Assembly: GCA_947507155.1 (NCBI GenBank)
Contig: CANNOC010000004.1
Coordinates: 1 to 64,000, forward strand
DNA length: 64,000 nt
From: an uncultured Collinsella sp.
Lineage (GTDB): Bacteria; Actinomycetota; Coriobacteriia; Coriobacteriales; Coriobacteriaceae
Direction: 5' to 3'
Part shown: positions 9,021 through 64,000 of the stretch, one piece after another
Layout: each line of letters begins with the position of its first letter
How positions within the stretch are numbered: the stretch's first letter is position 1
Notes under the pieces: generated by a model
Seen by the model: only the letters and a program-made list of their open reading frames with translations
Database searches by the model: none
Told to the model about the DNA's origin: nothing
Program-made: the position numbers and the translations under genes

Positions 9021-9449
9021 CTATTTCTTAGCGTGCTTGTCAGCACCCTTGCTGTCATCGGTGACCGAGATGAGCTGTCGGTCGGCCGCGCCATTGCGAC
9101 GCGCACGGCGGCGCTCCTCGGCATCGCCCGCGTCGGCGGCGGCGCGGTGAGCCTTGTTAACGTTAAAGACCTCGTCGTGCTTGCGCCACGGACCGACGGA
9201 CTCGCCAAAGCTCATCTTAAGGCCGGCGATAAAGCCGCCGAGCCAGCCGATCGGCGCAAACTGCACCAGCGGGAACAGCGAGAACACCCAGGTCAGCAGG
9301 ACGACTGCCGCCGCACCCGCAAAGTTGGCAATCCAGTAGTCGCGCTTGGTGATCACGCGCTTTTCGCACGCCCACTGGCCGCACAAAAAGCCGATGTAGA
9401 TCGCAAAGAGAAAGAGCGCCAGCGCAAGCACCACGAACGTCCAGCTCAT
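9021..9449 (-). CDS. Small membrane protein of unknown function
   Basis: 142 residues starting MSWTFVVLALALFLFAIY, with two or three transmembrane helices in the first 80 residues and a charged cytoplasmic tail rich in Arg, Asp and Lys. The ATG at 9447-9449 was chosen because GAGGAGTAAC precedes it; that GAGGAG also encodes the last residues of the upstream dehydrogenase, so the genes are probably translationally coupled. I do not recognise a family. Confidence 0.6.
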   Translation of the reverse strand: MSWTFVVLALALFLFAIYIGFLCGQWACEKRVITKRDYWIANFAGAAAVVLLTWVFSLFPLVQFAPIGWLGGFIAGLKMSFGESVGPWRKHDEVFNVNKAHRAAADAGDAEERRRARRNGAADRQLISVTDDSKGADKHAKK

Positions 9450-9454
9450 GGGCG

Positions 9455-10534
9455 TTACTCCTCGTGATGGTGGCCGCAGCAGCACTCGTGGCCGTCGTCA
9501 TGGCCGTGGCCGCCGCAGCACTCGTGGCCCTCGTCGTGGTGGTGGCCACAACCGCACTCGTGATCGTCGCCACGCTCGCCGCAACCGCAGCCTTCCTCGT
9601 GAGCACCGTGCTCCTCGGGACGATACTGCGACCAGTCCAGACCGGCGGCGATGGCATCGGCCTCCTCCTTATAGAGGACCGTGACGGCCTGGGTGCCCAG
9701 CTTGGCGCCACCGATGGCATCGAGCATGTCGTAAAGCGTAAAGGCCACGTCGGCGCCGGGCAGCGCAAGCTCACGGTCGTCGGCATAGGCGAGCGCCAAG
9801 CGCAGATCCTTAATGAAGTGCTCGACCATAAAGCCGGGCTTGTAGTCGCCGTCGAGCGCCTTGGGCGCCAGGCTCTCCATGGCGCCGGACTTGCCGGTGC
9901 CACCCAGGATCATCTGACGGGTCTTCTCAAGATCAAGGCCGCTCAGCTCGGCAAACGCCAGCGCGTCTGCCATGCCGACCATGCAGGCGCCCAGCGACAC
10001 CTGGTTGGCGAGCTTGGCAGCCTGGCCCTTGCCGGCGCCATCGAAGCAGCAGATGGTTGCCGCAAAGGTGGAAAGGATGTCGCGGACCGGCGCGATGTCG
10101 TTCTCGGTGGCGCCCACGATAGCCGTGAGCGTGCCGGCGATGGCACCCGACTCGCCGCCGGTGACGGGGCAGTCAAACGCCATGCGACCGGAGACCTGAG
10201 CGGCCTCGGCAATATCGCGCGCCAGCTCGGGCGAGCTCGTGGTAAGGTCGATCAGGACCGCACCGGGCTTAGTGCACGCGAGCAGACCGTCACCCGCCAG
10301 GTAGAGCTCCTCGACCTCGGAGGGATAACCCACCATGGTAAAGACGACGTCGGCGTTCGCCGCGGCATCTGCCGGCGTATCGGCCCAGACGGCACCGCGC
10401 TCAACGAGCGCTGCAGCCTTGGACTTGGTGCGGTTGTTGACCGTGACGGGATAGCCAGCGTCCAGAATGTGGCCGGCGATGGGGGCACCCATAATTCCGG
10501 TGCCGATAAATGCGACGGAGAGCTTGTTTGCCAT
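9455..10534 (-). CDS. 3-hydroxyisobutyrate dehydrogenase-family oxidoreductase with His/Cys-rich tail
   Basis: 359 residues. The Rossmann start LSVAFIGTGIMGAPIAGHIL, the catalytic DCPVTGGESGA segment (about 120-130) and the lysine in GKGQAAKLANQ mark a beta-hydroxyacid dehydrogenase (tartronate semialdehyde reductase / 3-hydroxyisobutyrate type). The family usually ends near residue 300. This one continues with 51 residues containing 13 His and 9 Cys, including three tandem 12-residue units (GDDHECGCGHHH, DEGHECCGGHGH, DDGHECCCGHHH). Such a tail would bind metal ions. It is first in the operon, with an AAAAGGAAAGG ribosome-binding site. The substrate is not determinable. Confidence 0.85.
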   Translation of the reverse strand: MANKLSVAFIGTGIMGAPIAGHILDAGYPVTVNNRTKSKAAALVERGAVWADTPADAAANADVVFTMVGYPSEVEELYLAGDGLLACTKPGAVLIDLTTSSPELARDIAEAAQVSGRMAFDCPVTGGESGAIAGTLTAIVGATENDIAPVRDILSTFAATICCFDGAGKGQAAKLANQVSLGACMVGMADALAFAELSGLDLEKTRQMILGGTGKSGAMESLAPKALDGDYKPGFMVEHFIKDLRLALAYADDRELALPGADVAFTLYDMLDAIGGAKLGTQAVTVLYKEEADAIAAGLDWSQYRPEEHGAHEEGCGCGERGDDHECGCGHHHDEGHECCGGHGHDDGHECCCGHHHEE

Positions 10535-56710: not shown

Positions 56711-59700
56711 CTAACGGATCAGCTGGCGGCGCTTGTCGGACAGGAAGACGCCGGCGGCAACCAGGACCGTGCCTCCAATTACGAACGTCTCGCCCAGCAG
56801 GTTGGACACGTCGCCCGTGGCGGGCATCGTCGTCTGCTGCGTGGTGGCCTCGGACGCCGAGGTCATGTGCTTGGCCTGGTACGCCACCTGCGTCGCAGGC
56901 TGAGTCTGCTCGCCATTCCCGCGCTCGGCGGCCTCTTGGCGAGCGATCTCGGCGTTGAGCTCGACAATAGCCTGGTCGAGCTCGGCCTTGGCGGCGGTAT
57001 AGTTGGCAAGCGCCTCCAAGTAGGCAGGTGCCACAGCATCCGTCGCAGCAACGGCAGCGTCGAGCTCAATCTTGGCAGCTGCGGCGCGCTCGACGGCATC
57101 GTGGGCTGCAGCGATCTTAGCGTTGAGCGCCTCATCCGCATCGTTGGCACGGCCGCTAGCGATGGCGTCGGCAAGGTTGATCCTGCGCAGGCGGGCAACC
57201 GCGGCGGCAGAAGCATCGCGATCAGCGGTCGCATCCGTTACGGCGTCGTCCGCCGCAGTCACGCCAGACTCGGCATCGGTCTTCGCCGAAGCCGCTGCCT
57301 CAACAGCAGCATCGGCAGCGGCCTTGTCCTCCGTCGCCTGAGCAAGCGCCGCGGCGGCATCATGTAGCTGAGCCGCACGAGCAGCAGCCGCGACGGATGC
57401 GGCCTGAGCCGCGGTCACAGCCGTGCCGGCACCGCTCGCAGCAGCCTGGGCGGCAACAAGCTCGGCCTGGGCAGCAGCGACGTCGGCATCTGCCTGGCCT
57501 GCCGCACCCTGCGCGGCATTCACTGCAGCCTGCGCGTCAGCCTGAACGGCACGCGCCCCCTCGAGCACCGCCGAGGCCGCATCAAATGCACGCTGAGCAG
57601 CGGCAACGTCGGCAGAGTACGCAGCCAGCTCGTCCTGGGCGGCAGCAAGCGCGCTCTCCTTGTCGCCAACGCCGGCGCGAGCGGCATCCAGCGCACGCCG
57701 GGCAGCGGCAGCCTTGCCCTTGGCGACATCGAGTTCATCAGACTTGGCAGTCACGACACTCTGCGCCGCGGTAACCGCAGCGCTGGCAGCGTCCACGTCG
57801 GCGCGGGCATCAGCCACGGCACGCGCAGCGGCCTCAGCCGCGGCCTGCTTCTCCCCCACGGCAGCCTGGGCATCCGAGGCCCCAGCGGCAGCAGCGTCAA
57901 CATCGGCGGCAGCAGCATCGACTTGAGCCTGCCTTGCAGCGGCGGCCTGCGACGCGGCGCTCACCTTGCCGCCAGCCTGCGCAGCCGCGCCCTGAGCGGC
58001 AGAAAGCTCCTGACGAGCCGCGTCCACGCCCTGCCCAGGATTTGCCAACGAGTCACACCACGCATTAAGCGCAGCCTCGTATTCGGCAACCGTCATCGGA
58101 TTGGCGGCATTCGTGTACCATCCTCCAGACATAGAGAACGTCTGCGCCTGCGTAAGCCAACGGTTCATCGTCCCGCGCGTGCAAACCCCCATACCCGTTA
58201 CGGTGTAATCGGGATCGATCACATTCATGTAGTGACCGACTGTATGCACGCTCCCGCCATGCGCAGCCACGTAGCGATCGATTTCGTCGCCATGCTGCTC
58301 GTAGAAATCAAAAGCAGCCTTTCCCGTAAGGCCCGTCGCTCCCAGCGTAGCCGCAGCGCGGTCAAAGACGGCCTTCTCCTGATCGACCCACTGGATGAAC
58401 GGGTCGCTTCCGTAGTTCCACGCCACGTTTTCGCCCACGTTGAACTGCATGGCGTGCGCAGTCTTGGTATCGGAGAAATTCGCATCGGCAATCGCGGTCG
58501 CCATCATGGCATACGTCACCTTGAGCTCACCCAGGCCAACGCTCGCACGATACTTGTTGCACGCCTTGAGCCACACAATCGCTTGCTTCATGTTGGTCAG
58601 ACTCGTCGCGTCAACCTCCTCGCCCACCTTGGTGAGGCTGGCATATTTGCAGTTGAGAATCAGGTCCGCCGCATCGTCGGCACCCACGCTCTTAAAGAAC
58701 GCAATGGCGCCCTGGCGGTAGTTTTCCGCCGAGGCGTTCGCCGTAGCCTGAGCGGCGTCGAGCTTGGCCTGCGCTTGAGCTACAGCCTGATCGGCCTGCT
58801 GCTTTTGAGCCTTTGCCTGGTCGAGCGCCTTGTCGGCAGCGTTCTTCTCGTCCTTAGCGGCCGAGAGCTTGGCCTGAGCGTCGGCCAGCGCCGCAAGCGC
58901 ATTGGCATGCTCGGCCTTAGCCTGATCGACGGCGGCGTCTGCCGCGGTCGCAGCAGCCGTGGCAGCGTCCAACTTGGACTGCGCGTCAGCCGCAGCCTGC
59001 TGCTGGACGGCGAGCGCCTGCTGAGCAGCCTGCACCTCACCCTCGGCAGTGGTCACTTCCTGCGAGGCAACAGCGAGTTCGCCCTCGCGCTGCGCCTGGA
59101 CCGACTTGGCGGCGTCCAGCGCGGCAGCGGCGGCGTCCACCTTGGCCTTGGCAGCCTCGTACTCCGGGCCCGCGGCACCCTGCTCGGCACGGTCGAGATC
59201 GGCCTTGGCGGCGTCATAGCTCGCCTGAGCGGCATTCACATCCTTATCGGCCGCATCCTTTGCCTGCTGAGCTGCCGAAAGCTTGCCTTGCGCGTCCTGC
59301 TGTTTGGCCGCGGCGGCATCAACGCCAGCCTGGGCATTCGAAAGCCTGACCTGCGCGTCGGCGGCCTGCTGCTTTGCCTGCTCCAGCTCGCTCGCGGCCT
59401 GCTCGGCAGCGGCCTGAGCCGCGGCAACAGCCTCGGGCGTGGCATCGGCAGCAGCGGCCTGCGCGGACTTGAGCGCAGCCTGGGCATCGTCGGCGGTCTT
59501 CTGGGCAGCGGTCAGGGCTTCACCCTTGTCCGTCAGATCCCTCTTTGCGGCATCGAGTGCAGCTTGAGCGTCCTCGAGCGCCTTCACGTCCGCATCGGCC
59601 TTGTCCTGCGCGGCACCCATCTGCTGCTCCAGCTCGGCCGAAGCTGCAGAAGCGGCAGCGTCGCTTGTGCCACGGGCCGCATCGTAGGCGCTCTGAGCCT

Positions 59701-60061
59701 GCTGCTGGTTGGCAGCGGCGGCGTCGTAAGGAGCGGCGGCCGCATCCAAATCGGCCTTGGCAGCAGCGGCCTTAGCGCGAGCCGCATCGACCGCAGCCTG
59801 CAGGTTGGCGACCTTCTGCACCGCTGACACCGTGCCCGCGCCAGCGCTAGCAGCAGCCGCGCTCGTCAACGGAGACAGCACCGCAGCCGGCTTCGCAGTA
59901 GCGTCGGCACCGTTCGCACCCTGCGCCACCGCAGTCAGCGGAGACAGCAGCGACCCGCCCGTCATGGCGATCGTTGCCGCAGCAACTGTCGCCATACGCC
60001 CGGCGGCCTTCGCCTTACCCGCAGCGCCGCCATTGATGTTCTTGTTCACGTTCTTGCTCAT
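56711..60061 (-). CDS. Large coiled-coil surface protein with CAP domain and sortase-like MPATG signal
   Basis: 1116 residues. An N-terminal signal (TVAAATIAMTGGSLLSPLTA) ends near residue 48. Residues 60-470 and 690-1050 are Ala/Asp/Gln/Lys-rich coiled coils. Between them (about 485-670) is a CAP/SCP-like domain: NKYRASVGLGELKV, AHAMQFNVGENVAWNYG, VGHYMNVIDPDYTVTG. The end has MPATGD (about 1078), a hydrophobic helix and KRRQLIR, the layout of a cell-wall sorting signal. It is probably wall-anchored and may act in adhesion. GGAAGGAATCGGCA precedes the ATG at 60059-60061. Confidence 0.85.
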   Translation of the reverse strand: MSKNVNKNINGGAAGKAKAAGRMATVAAATIAMTGGSLLSPLTAVAQGANGADATAKPAAVLSPLTSAAAASAGAGTVSAVQKVANLQAAVDAARAKAAAAKADLDAAAAPYDAAAANQQQAQSAYDAARGTSDAAASAASAELEQQMGAAQDKADADVKALEDAQAALDAAKRDLTDKGEALTAAQKTADDAQAALKSAQAAAADATPEAVAAAQAAAEQAASELEQAKQQAADAQVRLSNAQAGVDAAAAKQQDAQGKLSAAQQAKDAADKDVNAAQASYDAAKADLDRAEQGAAGPEYEAAKAKVDAAAAALDAAKSVQAQREGELAVASQEVTTAEGEVQAAQQALAVQQQAAADAQSKLDAATAAATAADAAVDQAKAEHANALAALADAQAKLSAAKDEKNAADKALDQAKAQKQQADQAVAQAQAKLDAAQATANASAENYRQGAIAFFKSVGADDAADLILNCKYASLTKVGEEVDATSLTNMKQAIVWLKACNKYRASVGLGELKVTYAMMATAIADANFSDTKTAHAMQFNVGENVAWNYGSDPFIQWVDQEKAVFDRAAATLGATGLTGKAAFDFYEQHGDEIDRYVAAHGGSVHTVGHYMNVIDPDYTVTGMGVCTRGTMNRWLTQAQTFSMSGGWYTNAANPMTVAEYEAALNAWCDSLANPGQGVDAARQELSAAQGAAAQAGGKVSAASQAAAARQAQVDAAAADVDAAAAGASDAQAAVGEKQAAAEAAARAVADARADVDAASAAVTAAQSVVTAKSDELDVAKGKAAAARRALDAARAGVGDKESALAAAQDELAAYSADVAAAQRAFDAASAVLEGARAVQADAQAAVNAAQGAAGQADADVAAAQAELVAAQAAASGAGTAVTAAQAASVAAAARAAQLHDAAAALAQATEDKAAADAAVEAAASAKTDAESGVTAADDAVTDATADRDASAAAVARLRRINLADAIASGRANDADEALNAKIAAAHDAVERAAAAKIELDAAVAATDAVAPAYLEALANYTAAKAELDQAIVELNAEIARQEAAERGNGEQTQPATQVAYQAKHMTSASEATTQQTTMPATGDVSNLLGETFVIGGTVLVAAGVFLSDKRRQLIR

Positions 60062-60180
60062 TGCCGATTCCTTCCCACGATGAGCTGATGTTTGACACAT
60101 AATCGATCCAATATGCCCCGCTAAAAAGAGGTGATAACGGGGTAATTAAATCGGAGGAGTTGGAGACAAGCCCACATCCA

Positions 60181-60528: not shown

Positions 60529-62424
60529 TCACTTGTCGCCACCGCCATCCTCTACCGCGCCCTCACGCGCAGCGCACTCGTTGAGATACTTGACCGGAAT
60601 CGGCCACACGGACGGAGCCTTATAGCGCGAAAGGCCTATGTTGGCCAGCTGAACCAACAACTCAGACAAATCATCGCCGTCGAGTACCTCAATCGAACGC
60701 ACGTGAATCGCAGTCGCCATATCCTCCTGGGTGCCGTTGTTGACGCCCACAAAATAGCAAGTCTTGCCCGCACGCTCGAACGTTCCAATGCCGTAATAAG
60801 GCGAGTTGTAGCTCTCGAAAATCTCTTTCTTACGCCCTGCTTTGCCTGTGAGCTGATGCTCACCCACCAGGGCCATAAAGTTATTGGAAAACGTCGTCAG
60901 TCCCGTATCCCGCACGCGCGCAAGCATAGACTGCCCGTCCGCATGCACGTCAAAGACATAGGCGCCCTTATCGAGTTTGCCGTCCGCGGTCAGCAGATCG
61001 AGCTCCATCTCGTCCTCGGGACCATCCTCTGCCGAATGTGAGGCATAGCGCATGCCCCCATCCGCGCCAATCGCCAACGTAGCGATACGCGAATCCAGCT
61101 CAATCTTGTCCTTTGTTTTATGCGGCACATCGACCAAGCCACACACCGTCACCGACTCAATATCCAAAGCATCAAGATCAAACGCCGTCACCCGCTCGTC
61201 GACAACATCCTGCTTTACCAGCAGTTCTTTGAGCATGGCGCCCAGGATCGCCTCTTGCGCATTGCGATCCTTTTGCTTTGGCGCCACCTTAAACAGTGGC
61301 TCGCACACATCCGGTGTCACGTGCTGTTCCACCACGCCAGCATGTAAGGCATAGCCGTCGTCCTCAGCAACCTCATTGGGCACAACGACAAGGTTCAGCG
61401 CCCGCGAATCCACGGCCCTTCCGCCATACGTTGCGCGAACGCCCCACGAGGAATCGTTAAGTCGATCGGCCAGCTGGCGCGCCACTTCGGCAAGCCCATT
61501 GCGCGCAAACGACACCACGATTCGCTGCCCCGCCATGCGCTCCGCAACCACGCGCGCGTACTCATCACCCTTGAGCACCTCGTAGAAACTCTTACGCGGG
61601 TATTCCATGAGCGTCACCCGGGCGAAGTCGCTGTAACGGCGTTCGAGAATCTGCAGCTCTCGATACAAAATGCCCTTCTTGGTATAGGCGACCTTGTCCG
61701 CCTGGGCCGAGAACGTCAGATCACGGCGCTTGGACGGCTTGTCGCCCTTGGCTCGGCGCAGGATGTACTCGTCTTTTTGTTCGTGGGCAAGCACCATCGT
61801 CGCCACGGGCGATAGCCTGTAGCCCACTTGGCTCTTAATCTTTTCGAGCTCTTTCTCGTCACCTTGTGCCCTGCCAATAAGCACACGGCGCTTGGTAAAC
61901 GTCCGAATCTTAAGATCAAAGGTGCAATCCTCATCGATAACGATTTCAACCGTTTCGATCTTGGCAGGTCCCCTTCCGTCGCTTTCGACAGCATCGCGGC
62001 GGGCACCCTTGGCGCTAATGACATACAGGTGCCCGGTGTCATTGGGAACTTCGTCCTCAATCCCCTCAAACTGAGAGCAGGAGTTGAACAGCAAGCGGAG
62101 CGCAACGTAATCGTCCAACTCGTTCCAATTAGTTTTAATCGGAACTATCTGCTCCTGATAAAGCGAGGCATTAAGGTCGCCCGTCTGCACGCCCGCTTTG
62201 ACCATCAGAAAGACGCGGTTGTCTGCAAGCTGCGTGAGCGCGACGACCTTGCCCGTCTGGCACACATCGGCCATAAAGTTCGCCACGGCATGCTTGCCCG
62301 CATCGCCGACGTTGCACCAAAAGACCGAGTAGCGCTCCTCGGCAGCAGCGGCATCGAGCTGCAACACGAGCTCTGATACGGCGATGTCTCCCAAACCGCA
62401 CGGCTGGTTATGCTTCGATTGCAC
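60529..62424 (-). CDS. Divergent Argonaute/PIWI-like protein, DdmE candidate
   Basis: 631 residues. Residues 295-410 look like a MID domain: RIVVSFARNGLAEVARQLAD, ALNLVVVPNEVAE, HAGVVEQHVT, then KELLVKQDVV. Residues 425-620 look like PIWI: GLVDVPHKTK, SRIATLAIGADGGMRYA, and the end YKAPSVWPIPVKYLNECA, where PIWI domains carry a conserved proline-rich close. I cannot trace a complete DEDX catalytic tetrad, so it is probably a guide-binding, non-cleaving protein, as DdmE is. The start is GTG at 62422-62424 with GGAGG 9 bp upstream, overlapping the helicase gene by 17 bp. Alternative: a PIWI-RE family member. Confidence 0.6.
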   Translation of the reverse strand: MQSKHNQPCGLGDIAVSELVLQLDAAAAEERYSVFWCNVGDAGKHAVANFMADVCQTGKVVALTQLADNRVFLMVKAGVQTGDLNASLYQEQIVPIKTNWNELDDYVALRLLFNSCSQFEGIEDEVPNDTGHLYVISAKGARRDAVESDGRGPAKIETVEIVIDEDCTFDLKIRTFTKRRVLIGRAQGDEKELEKIKSQVGYRLSPVATMVLAHEQKDEYILRRAKGDKPSKRRDLTFSAQADKVAYTKKGILYRELQILERRYSDFARVTLMEYPRKSFYEVLKGDEYARVVAERMAGQRIVVSFARNGLAEVARQLADRLNDSSWGVRATYGGRAVDSRALNLVVVPNEVAEDDGYALHAGVVEQHVTPDVCEPLFKVAPKQKDRNAQEAILGAMLKELLVKQDVVDERVTAFDLDALDIESVTVCGLVDVPHKTKDKIELDSRIATLAIGADGGMRYASHSAEDGPEDEMELDLLTADGKLDKGAYVFDVHADGQSMLARVRDTGLTTFSNNFMALVGEHQLTGKAGRKKEIFESYNSPYYGIGTFERAGKTCYFVGVNNGTQEDMATAIHVRSIEVLDGDDLSELLVQLANIGLSRYKAPSVWPIPVKYLNECAAREGAVEDGGGDK

Positions 62425-64000
62425 GGCCGATCGCCTCCATCATCTCCAAATTGATTGCACCGTCGGCGGCCATATAAGGAACGGAGAACACAGTCCCCTC
62501 AGCATCGAGTGCCTTGGGCACGCACTCAAGCGCTGCCTCATCAGCCAAAACGTTGACGATTAGCAGGCGTTTCGCCCCAACCTTTTGAGCCTTCGCCCTA
62601 AAGCGCTCGGCATCCGACGCCTCGCGACCGTCGCGAACATAAGCGATATAGGCACCGATGCGATAGTGCTTAAAATCGATCCATACCCCGGTCGTGTTGC
62701 CAGCAGCATCGAGCACCTCAAAGTCGCCACCTGTCTCGGCGTGTGCCGCATCGCCACGCGTAAGCGAATAGCGGCCGTCGTAATATGCCTCAAAGATTGC
62801 CCTTCCGGCAGATTCTCCCAGCTCACCCAGGTAGACCGCCTGGAACATATAGGGCGTCATGTGCGCCGTCGCCGCCGGCTGCAGCGTTGTGGGCACCCCG
62901 TCGCTCGACCAACGCTCACGCACTTCGCGAATTGACAGCAGCTCGGGTACGCGCGCCGCCGCCTGGCTCACCTGGCGAACCGTCGCGCCCTTTAAGCCCT
63001 CCTTGCAGTGGCAACGATCCTCCAGACGAGCAGCAATCTGCTCGACGGGCTCACCATCGTAGCTAGGGAATTCAAAGTGCGGCACCTTGCATGCCCCGCC
63101 TTCTGCATAGGCATAGCCATTTGCAGCATGCGACATGCGCAGCGCGGTACTCCGGCGCTCTGGGTATTGCGCGAGATCTTCCCACGGCAGGCAAAAATGA
63201 TGCAGGTAAAAGTCGCGCTCGCCATCAAAAGCAGTGAGATCTTCGTCCCCGGCGTTTAGCGAGGTAACTTTCCACGCCAGCTTTTCGTGCTTTTGCTTGG
63301 CAAGGTTGTTCCTAAAGGCGGCAAGGTTCTGCTGCTTAACGGCAGCGTGTTCCTTGTTGTCCGTCATATGGTTGTTGGCAGCGGCGCAGGCACCAACCAC
63401 CTGCTCAAGCTCGTAGCCCATCGGCAAATCATGCAAGAACGAAAAGTTGCAATCGTTCGCAATCTCGCGGTCGAGCAGCACCTGCACGCAAGGCATCTTT
63501 ACACTCGTGCGCATCAGGCGACCCACAGCCTGTGCCACAATGCGAGCGCCTTCGACCTGATAAGAGAGGGTGTCGCGCACCGGCAGGCTCTTATTAACGC
63601 CAGATAGAAGCATCCGTACGTTCCGGCGCTTTTGAGTAAACGGAACCTCGCCGCGCGCTACCAGTTCCTCCTGCTCCACCACGCCAAGTAGCGCCTGCTG
63701 GACAAACTTATTTGAGTTGATCTCCACTCCCCAGGTCAAACGACTTGTGGGCGACTCGATATATAAGAAATCAAGATCCATCTTGGGGCGACGGTCGGCA
63801 TTTTCAAAGCCGCAATCGACCTGATGAACCATGTCGCACAGATTCTCCGGCACCTTGTATTTGAGATTCTTGGAAAAGCCACCGGCCGAAAGATTGATAA
63901 ACATCAGGGTCGGCTGGCCCAGCTCGAGACGTTTTTGAGCGCCACGCCAACCTGCATCCCATTCCGCAGCGTTAAAGCACGGCACCATGTCCTTGGCGGC
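62408..64000 (-). CDS. Helicase with C-terminal PD-(D/E)XK-like nuclease, DdmD candidate, partial
   Basis: About 530 C-terminal residues are visible; the frame continues past the right edge. QAVGRLMRTS (about 63532-63503) is superfamily 2 helicase motif VI. Toward the end ETGGDFEVLDAAGNTTGVWIDFK (split: GGDFEV at about 62731-62714; WIDFKHY at about 62683-62663) gives Asp and Asp-x-Lys spaced as in PD-(D/E)XK nucleases, followed by AKRLLIVNVL. An ATPase-driven DNA translocase joined to a nuclease is the DdmD architecture. The next gene overlaps it. The N-terminal helicase motifs are outside the window. Confidence 0.6.
   Translation of the reverse strand, partial: AAKDMVPCFNAAEWDAGWRGAQKRLELGQPTLMFINLSAGGFSKNLKYKVPENLCDMVHQVDCGFENADRRPKMDLDFLYIESPTSRLTWGVEINSNKFVQQALLGVVEQEELVARGEVPFTQKRRNVRMLLSGVNKSLPVRDTLSYQVEGARIVAQAVGRLMRTSVKMPCVQVLLDREIANDCNFSFLHDLPMGYELEQVVGACAAANNHMTDNKEHAAVKQQNLAAFRNNLAKQKHEKLAWKVTSLNAGDEDLTAFDGERDFYLHHFCLPWEDLAQYPERRSTALRMSHAANGYAYAEGGACKVPHFEFPSYDGEPVEQIAARLEDRCHCKEGLKGATVRQVSQAAARVPELLSIREVRERWSSDGVPTTLQPAATAHMTPYMFQAVYLGELGESAGRAIFEAYYDGRYSLTRGDAAHAETGGDFEVLDAAGNTTGVWIDFKHYRIGAYIAYVRDGREASDAERFRAKAQKVGAKRLLIVNVLADEAALECVPKALDAEGTVFSVPYMAADGAINLEMMEAIGRAIEA

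Follow-up and report, generated by a model that had tools for sequence, protein, structure and literature searches.

DdmDE became known in 2022, and structures have been solved for the systems of Vibrio cholerae and of the Gram-positive Lactobacillus casei. In these solved relatives, a single-stranded DNA guide lets DdmE locate plasmid DNA and bring in DdmD; DdmD then loads on the non-target strand, moves 5' to 3' and cuts (PMC12409362, PMC12904381); one sentence of PMC12904381 has the names DdmD and DdmE swapped, and its own table agrees with PMC12409362. Both DdmDE and the wider ApsA/DdmD family have been published (PMC11096173). Because DdmDE is thus already known, also in a Gram-positive, what is new here is a divergent branch, a DdmDE of Coriobacteriia in which neighbour genes retained by its relatives have been lost. 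Among the ten best matches of a literature search, largely outside subscription papers, none links DdmDE to Collinsella or Coriobacteriia.

The window that we analysed comprises 64,000 nucleotides of an uncultured Collinsella sp. (contig CANNOC010000004.1 positions 1-64000, or C4:1-64000), and the contig extends beyond its right edge. Two overlapping genes at that edge very probably constitute a DdmDE anti-plasmid system that is chromosomal and whose sequence has diverged strongly. This reading rests on the homology of both proteins, their order and overlap, the predicted fold, the motifs, the absence of a catalytic tetrad and purifying selection, and it extends DdmDE to gut Coriobacteriia. 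A preliminary description had proposed a distant DdmDE relative in a gut actinobacterium; the profile searches, the order and overlap of the genes, the helicase and nuclease motifs and the fold predicted for DdmE all agree with this.

Gene layout and distribution

The open reading frame listing gives two minus-strand frames with an overlap at the right end of the window, 60529-62424 and 62408-63988, as had been described. The first (60529..62424, minus strand) is a ddmE-like gene for a DdmE-type inactive Argonaute of 631 aa; the second is a ddmD-like gene (62408..64000, minus strand) whose C-terminal 530 aa, with motif VI and the PD-(D/E)XK nuclease, lie in the window. The helicase gene was expected to continue on a neighbouring contig; the complete gene was indeed recovered, but on the same contig, at C4:62408-66346 (L002:8409-12347:-), with 1312 codons counted from a TTG and an ATG at codon 3 that is preceded by a GGAGG site. 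The end of ddmD and the start of ddmE share 17 bp (62408..62424, minus strand), ddmE starting with a GTG 17 bp within ddmD and having a GGAGG 9 nt upstream. ddmD therefore lies immediately upstream of ddmE on one strand, the order seen in V. cholerae, and the overlap recurs in the nearest relatives, at 17 bp in a Collinsella (G040) and 11 bp in a member of the Eggerthellaceae (G361).

Identity to the window pair is 81% for G040 and 24-26% for G361, and the loci that are near-identical and 81% identical to it are found in uncultured Collinsella MAGs (L025, L026). A second genome has both frames complete and in nearly identical form. In comparison with G040, dN/dS is about 0.15 for ddmD and ddmE alike, and both genes are under purifying selection. 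The pair is uncommon: a full DdmD is present in 5 of 398 genomes of the class, a search that includes the distant relatives G361 and G267, each with a DdmE gene behind ddmD; the DdmE gene is present in 3 of 67 genomes of the family. The window genome alone has a full DdmD in a draw of 396 genomes from the phylum, and phylum-wide matches outside Coriobacteriia cover only short segments of the profile, at its P-loop end. We rejected a weak DdmD match in G104 (L016), as this region encodes an unrelated extracellular protein. The ddmD-ddmE order is also present in Carnobacterium, Aquimarina, Draconibacterium and a Firmicute. The deep forks of the DdmD and DdmE trees are poorly supported; the Coriobacteriia copies may share a common origin, with support of 87/96 in the DdmE tree and no resolution in the DdmD tree.

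Viral contigs gave no match, and neither did a plasmid collection searched with the window DdmE; the same collection searched with a relative's DdmD yielded four plasmids. A gene of DdmE size stands behind ddmD on Nostoc pn2 (292 kb), Cetobacterium p6 (48 kb) and Persicobacter pPP11 (46 kb); these ddmD-ddmE-like pairs (L072, L073, L074) are themselves plasmid-borne. A DdmD homologue at L027:5015-8371 has no DdmE behind it and is accompanied instead by OLD-like and UvrD-like genes.

Homology and motifs of DdmD and DdmE

As a single query, the window DdmD matches the solved L. casei DdmD at 3e-7, the PADLOC DdmD model at 1.3e-6 and DdmD homologues of unrelated phyla at 1e-19 to 1e-31, and the likeness is therefore not due to chance. 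A four-row profile, built with the window protein and relatives including G361 and G267, finds the solved DdmDs in the PDB at 5e-84 and 4.5e-70. Larger profiles add loci of Carnobacterium, Aquimarina, Draconibacterium and Bacillota (and of Nonlabens for DdmE only), and with nine rows the DdmD profile matches L. casei at 1.5e-137 and V. cholerae at 8e-110. L. casei, the best DdmD profile match for Collinsella, is the source of PDB entries 9ix4, 9iw3 and 9ixm according to a reference in PMC12409362 (Huang et al. 2024) and also according to the fold-search titles. Its DdmDE shares both subunits, the helicase and nuclease motifs and the fold with the Collinsella pair, but identity is very low, the Collinsella P-loop reads GKN, and DdmD has 1312 codons compared to 1192 residues in L. 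casei.

The preliminary description had recognised a superfamily 2 helicase with a C-terminal PD-(D/E)XK-like nuclease from the C-terminal 530 residues only. The full protein, homologous to solved DdmD, bears this out, with motifs I (GATTGSGKN), II (DEID), III (SAT) and VI (QAVGRLMRT) and the nuclease motif E...D...DFK. All nine DdmD rows share, without variation, the Walker lysine, DE, SAT, QxxGRxxR and the D...DFKH of the nuclease. The one deviation is in motif I, where the Collinsella copies have GSGKN rather than GSGK(S/T); G267 has GERKT. Asparagine in place of serine or threonine could reduce ATP hydrolysis by DdmD, and this change is our main doubt about whether DdmDE works in Collinsella.

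The window DdmE as a single query matches the Eggerthellaceae (G361) DdmE at 1.4e-28 and the solved DdmE at 0.21, which is below significance. The PADLOC DdmE model matches at 0.031, and with the corresponding DdmD match near 1e-6 the standard models nearly miss this branch, so that censuses of anti-plasmid defence in the gut probably undercount it. The four-row DdmE profile finds solved DdmE in the PDB at 2.5e-21 and 1.3e-18, and the enlarged profile at 1.9e-35. We predicted the structure using AlphaFold2 on eight DdmEs, giving a model of moderate confidence (pLDDT 65.7, pTM 0.63). The top six Foldseek matches of this model are DdmE chains (5e-19 to 3e-12), followed by a Thermus Argonaute at 1e-8. 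VIA-align gives Z scores of 13.7-19.0 for DdmE and at most 13.1 for other Argonautes, the lowest DdmE row being approximately tied with the best other Argonaute and the remaining DdmE rows 3 to 6 higher. The predicted fold is that of a MID-PIWI Argonaute nearest to solved DdmE. The V. cholerae system (PDB 8u0w, 8u3k, 9bf1, 9ezy and others) has the same pair, order and domains, with the DdmE fold matching at Z up to 19, but the structurally aligned DdmE sequences are only about 17% identical.

The only invariant acidic residues in the PIWI part of the eight DdmEs are D416 and E616, and the catalytic (DEDX) tetrad is therefore not conserved; both the fold and this alignment agree with the earlier account of a 631-residue MID-PIWI-like protein without an obvious tetrad. 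Residues Q367, T370, K399, E400, K404 and D406 (Q..T and KE...K.D) are invariant in the MID part, and we infer that they serve guide binding. By analogy with the solved relatives, from which DNA guides, recruitment, 5'-3' translocation and a plasmid target are all carried over, DdmE, having no nuclease residues of its own, would use its MID domain to hold a short guide of DNA, pair with matching plasmid DNA, and then recruit DdmD. The DdmD helicase would load on the displaced strand and unwind the DNA, and its C-terminal PD-(D/E)XK nuclease would cut, with loss of the plasmid.

Neighbouring genes and alternative readings

The gene order in G040 (L017) is ddmE, ddmD, a gene for a 589-aa ClpX-like AAA+ protein, a membrane protein gene, and a divergent gene for a 534-aa protein, the C-terminal part of which resembles type I specificity subunits (methylase-specificity, M-S-like). 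The order recurs in G361 (L014), with a divergent M-S-like gene, AAA+, ddmD and ddmE and without the membrane protein gene. The AAA+ proteins of G361 and G040 are 30% identical across 575 aa (2e-57), and the M-S-like proteins are linked by profile at 9e-5, compared to 3.3 for the best of 2000 shuffles; an NPPF-type motif is absent from both M-S-like proteins. Both AAA+ proteins carry a pore loop of the form GWxG as well as a [VL]GF loop, the latter of which we take to resemble the ClpP-docking loop of ClpX. They group weakly in the AAA+ tree (73/67), and GWxG ClpX paralogues also exist without ddmDE. No AAA+ gene was found adjoining ddmDE in G267 or in the loci of other phyla.

The AAA+ and M-S genes are gone from the window genome and from G038, leaving the 3' end of the AAA+ gene as a stub of 45 in-frame codons, 88.9% identical, which adjoins ddmD (L002:12475-12609; C4:66474-66608). 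Past the stub, homology of the window genome to G040 breaks off at L017:12596 and resumes at L017:17114, corresponding to a deletion of some 4.5 kb, and no M-S gene was found elsewhere in the window genome. Collinsella G018 has the same site without ddmE, ddmD or AAA+ (L086, about 9294-9727); an M-S 3' piece remains, joined to the CAP-domain surface protein gene. Members of two families keep these neighbours while the window genome has lost them, which hints at a possible layer of control over DdmDE; the neighbours may be part of its mechanism. A tentative scheme, which we consider possible but doubtful, is that DdmDE of Coriobacteriia is a four-gene system in which a ClpX-like unfoldase and a probably inactive M-S fusion control or direct DdmDE, for instance through recognition of foreign DNA or through removal of DdmD or DdmE by ClpP proteolysis, the window genome carrying a derived form freed of control. 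As the association is seen at two loci only, these could also be chance neighbours.

With its relatives' neighbour genes gone, the window unit could represent a system in reduction or decay. On an alternative explanation, its ancestor was DdmDE but it has ceased to act against plasmids, the GKN P-loop and the AAA+ and M-S losses marking a system on its way out. The in-frame stub next to ddmD fits this account, as does the site in the sister species G018, where ddmDE is lost and only the M-S piece retained. We nonetheless regard it as unlikely, given two complete frames nearly identical in a second genome and the low dN/dS relative to G040. An AAA+ gene is absent from most DdmDE loci, and GKN is shared with G040, which keeps all of the genes, so that GKN is not tied to the deletion.

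The DdmDE reading is also favoured over assignment to other families. In PIWI-RE systems, too, a PIWI protein has a helicase as its partner, of DinG type and accompanied by a restriction endonuclease, and such a system had been offered as an alternative in the preliminary description; a DinG-like motif VI match (0.0034) for the G361 DdmD leans in this direction. However, neither Pfam, NCBIfam nor PADLOC gives a PIWI-RE family match (family models only), and the DdmD and DdmE profiles match instead, leaving PIWI-RE barely credible. Membership of the ApsAB branch, with an ApsB-type partner, is hardly more probable. ApsA and DdmD do belong to one broad helicase-nuclease family, and ApsAB of Escherichia coli ST38 has an Argonaute-like partner (PMC11096173), but the Collinsella partner is DdmE-like, not ApsB-like, by both profile and fold. 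ApsB is reported to have no sequence similarity to DdmE (PMC11096173), and its MID motif Y-x3-K-xn-QG-xn-K is absent from the window DdmE and seven relatives. We rejected both readings, PIWI-RE on the family models and the DdmD and DdmE profile matches, and ApsAB on the DdmE profile, the DdmE fold and the missing ApsB motif.

Surrounding island and related clusters

Directly downstream of ddmE is a gene for a repetitive CAP-domain surface-type protein of 1129 aa with a C-terminal membrane anchor (56711-60100, minus strand). ClpX paralogues of about 500-640 aa with a GWxG-type pore loop occur in several Coriobacteriia (L049, L052, L053, L054, L076), and L076 additionally carries a CRISPR-like repeat array. 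In related genera, an M-S fusion protein lacking NPPF lies within a conserved gene cluster that includes a number of unknown partners (L087, L088, L089, L090). The surroundings of ddmDE are a defence island, a setting that fits the DdmDE reading: nearby is a McrBC-like pair, consisting of a McrB-like AAA protein (PADLOC candidate PDC-M26A, 3e-54) and a DUF2357/PDDEXK_7 protein (L002:16293-19886), with a C5-methyltransferase beyond this pair in G038.
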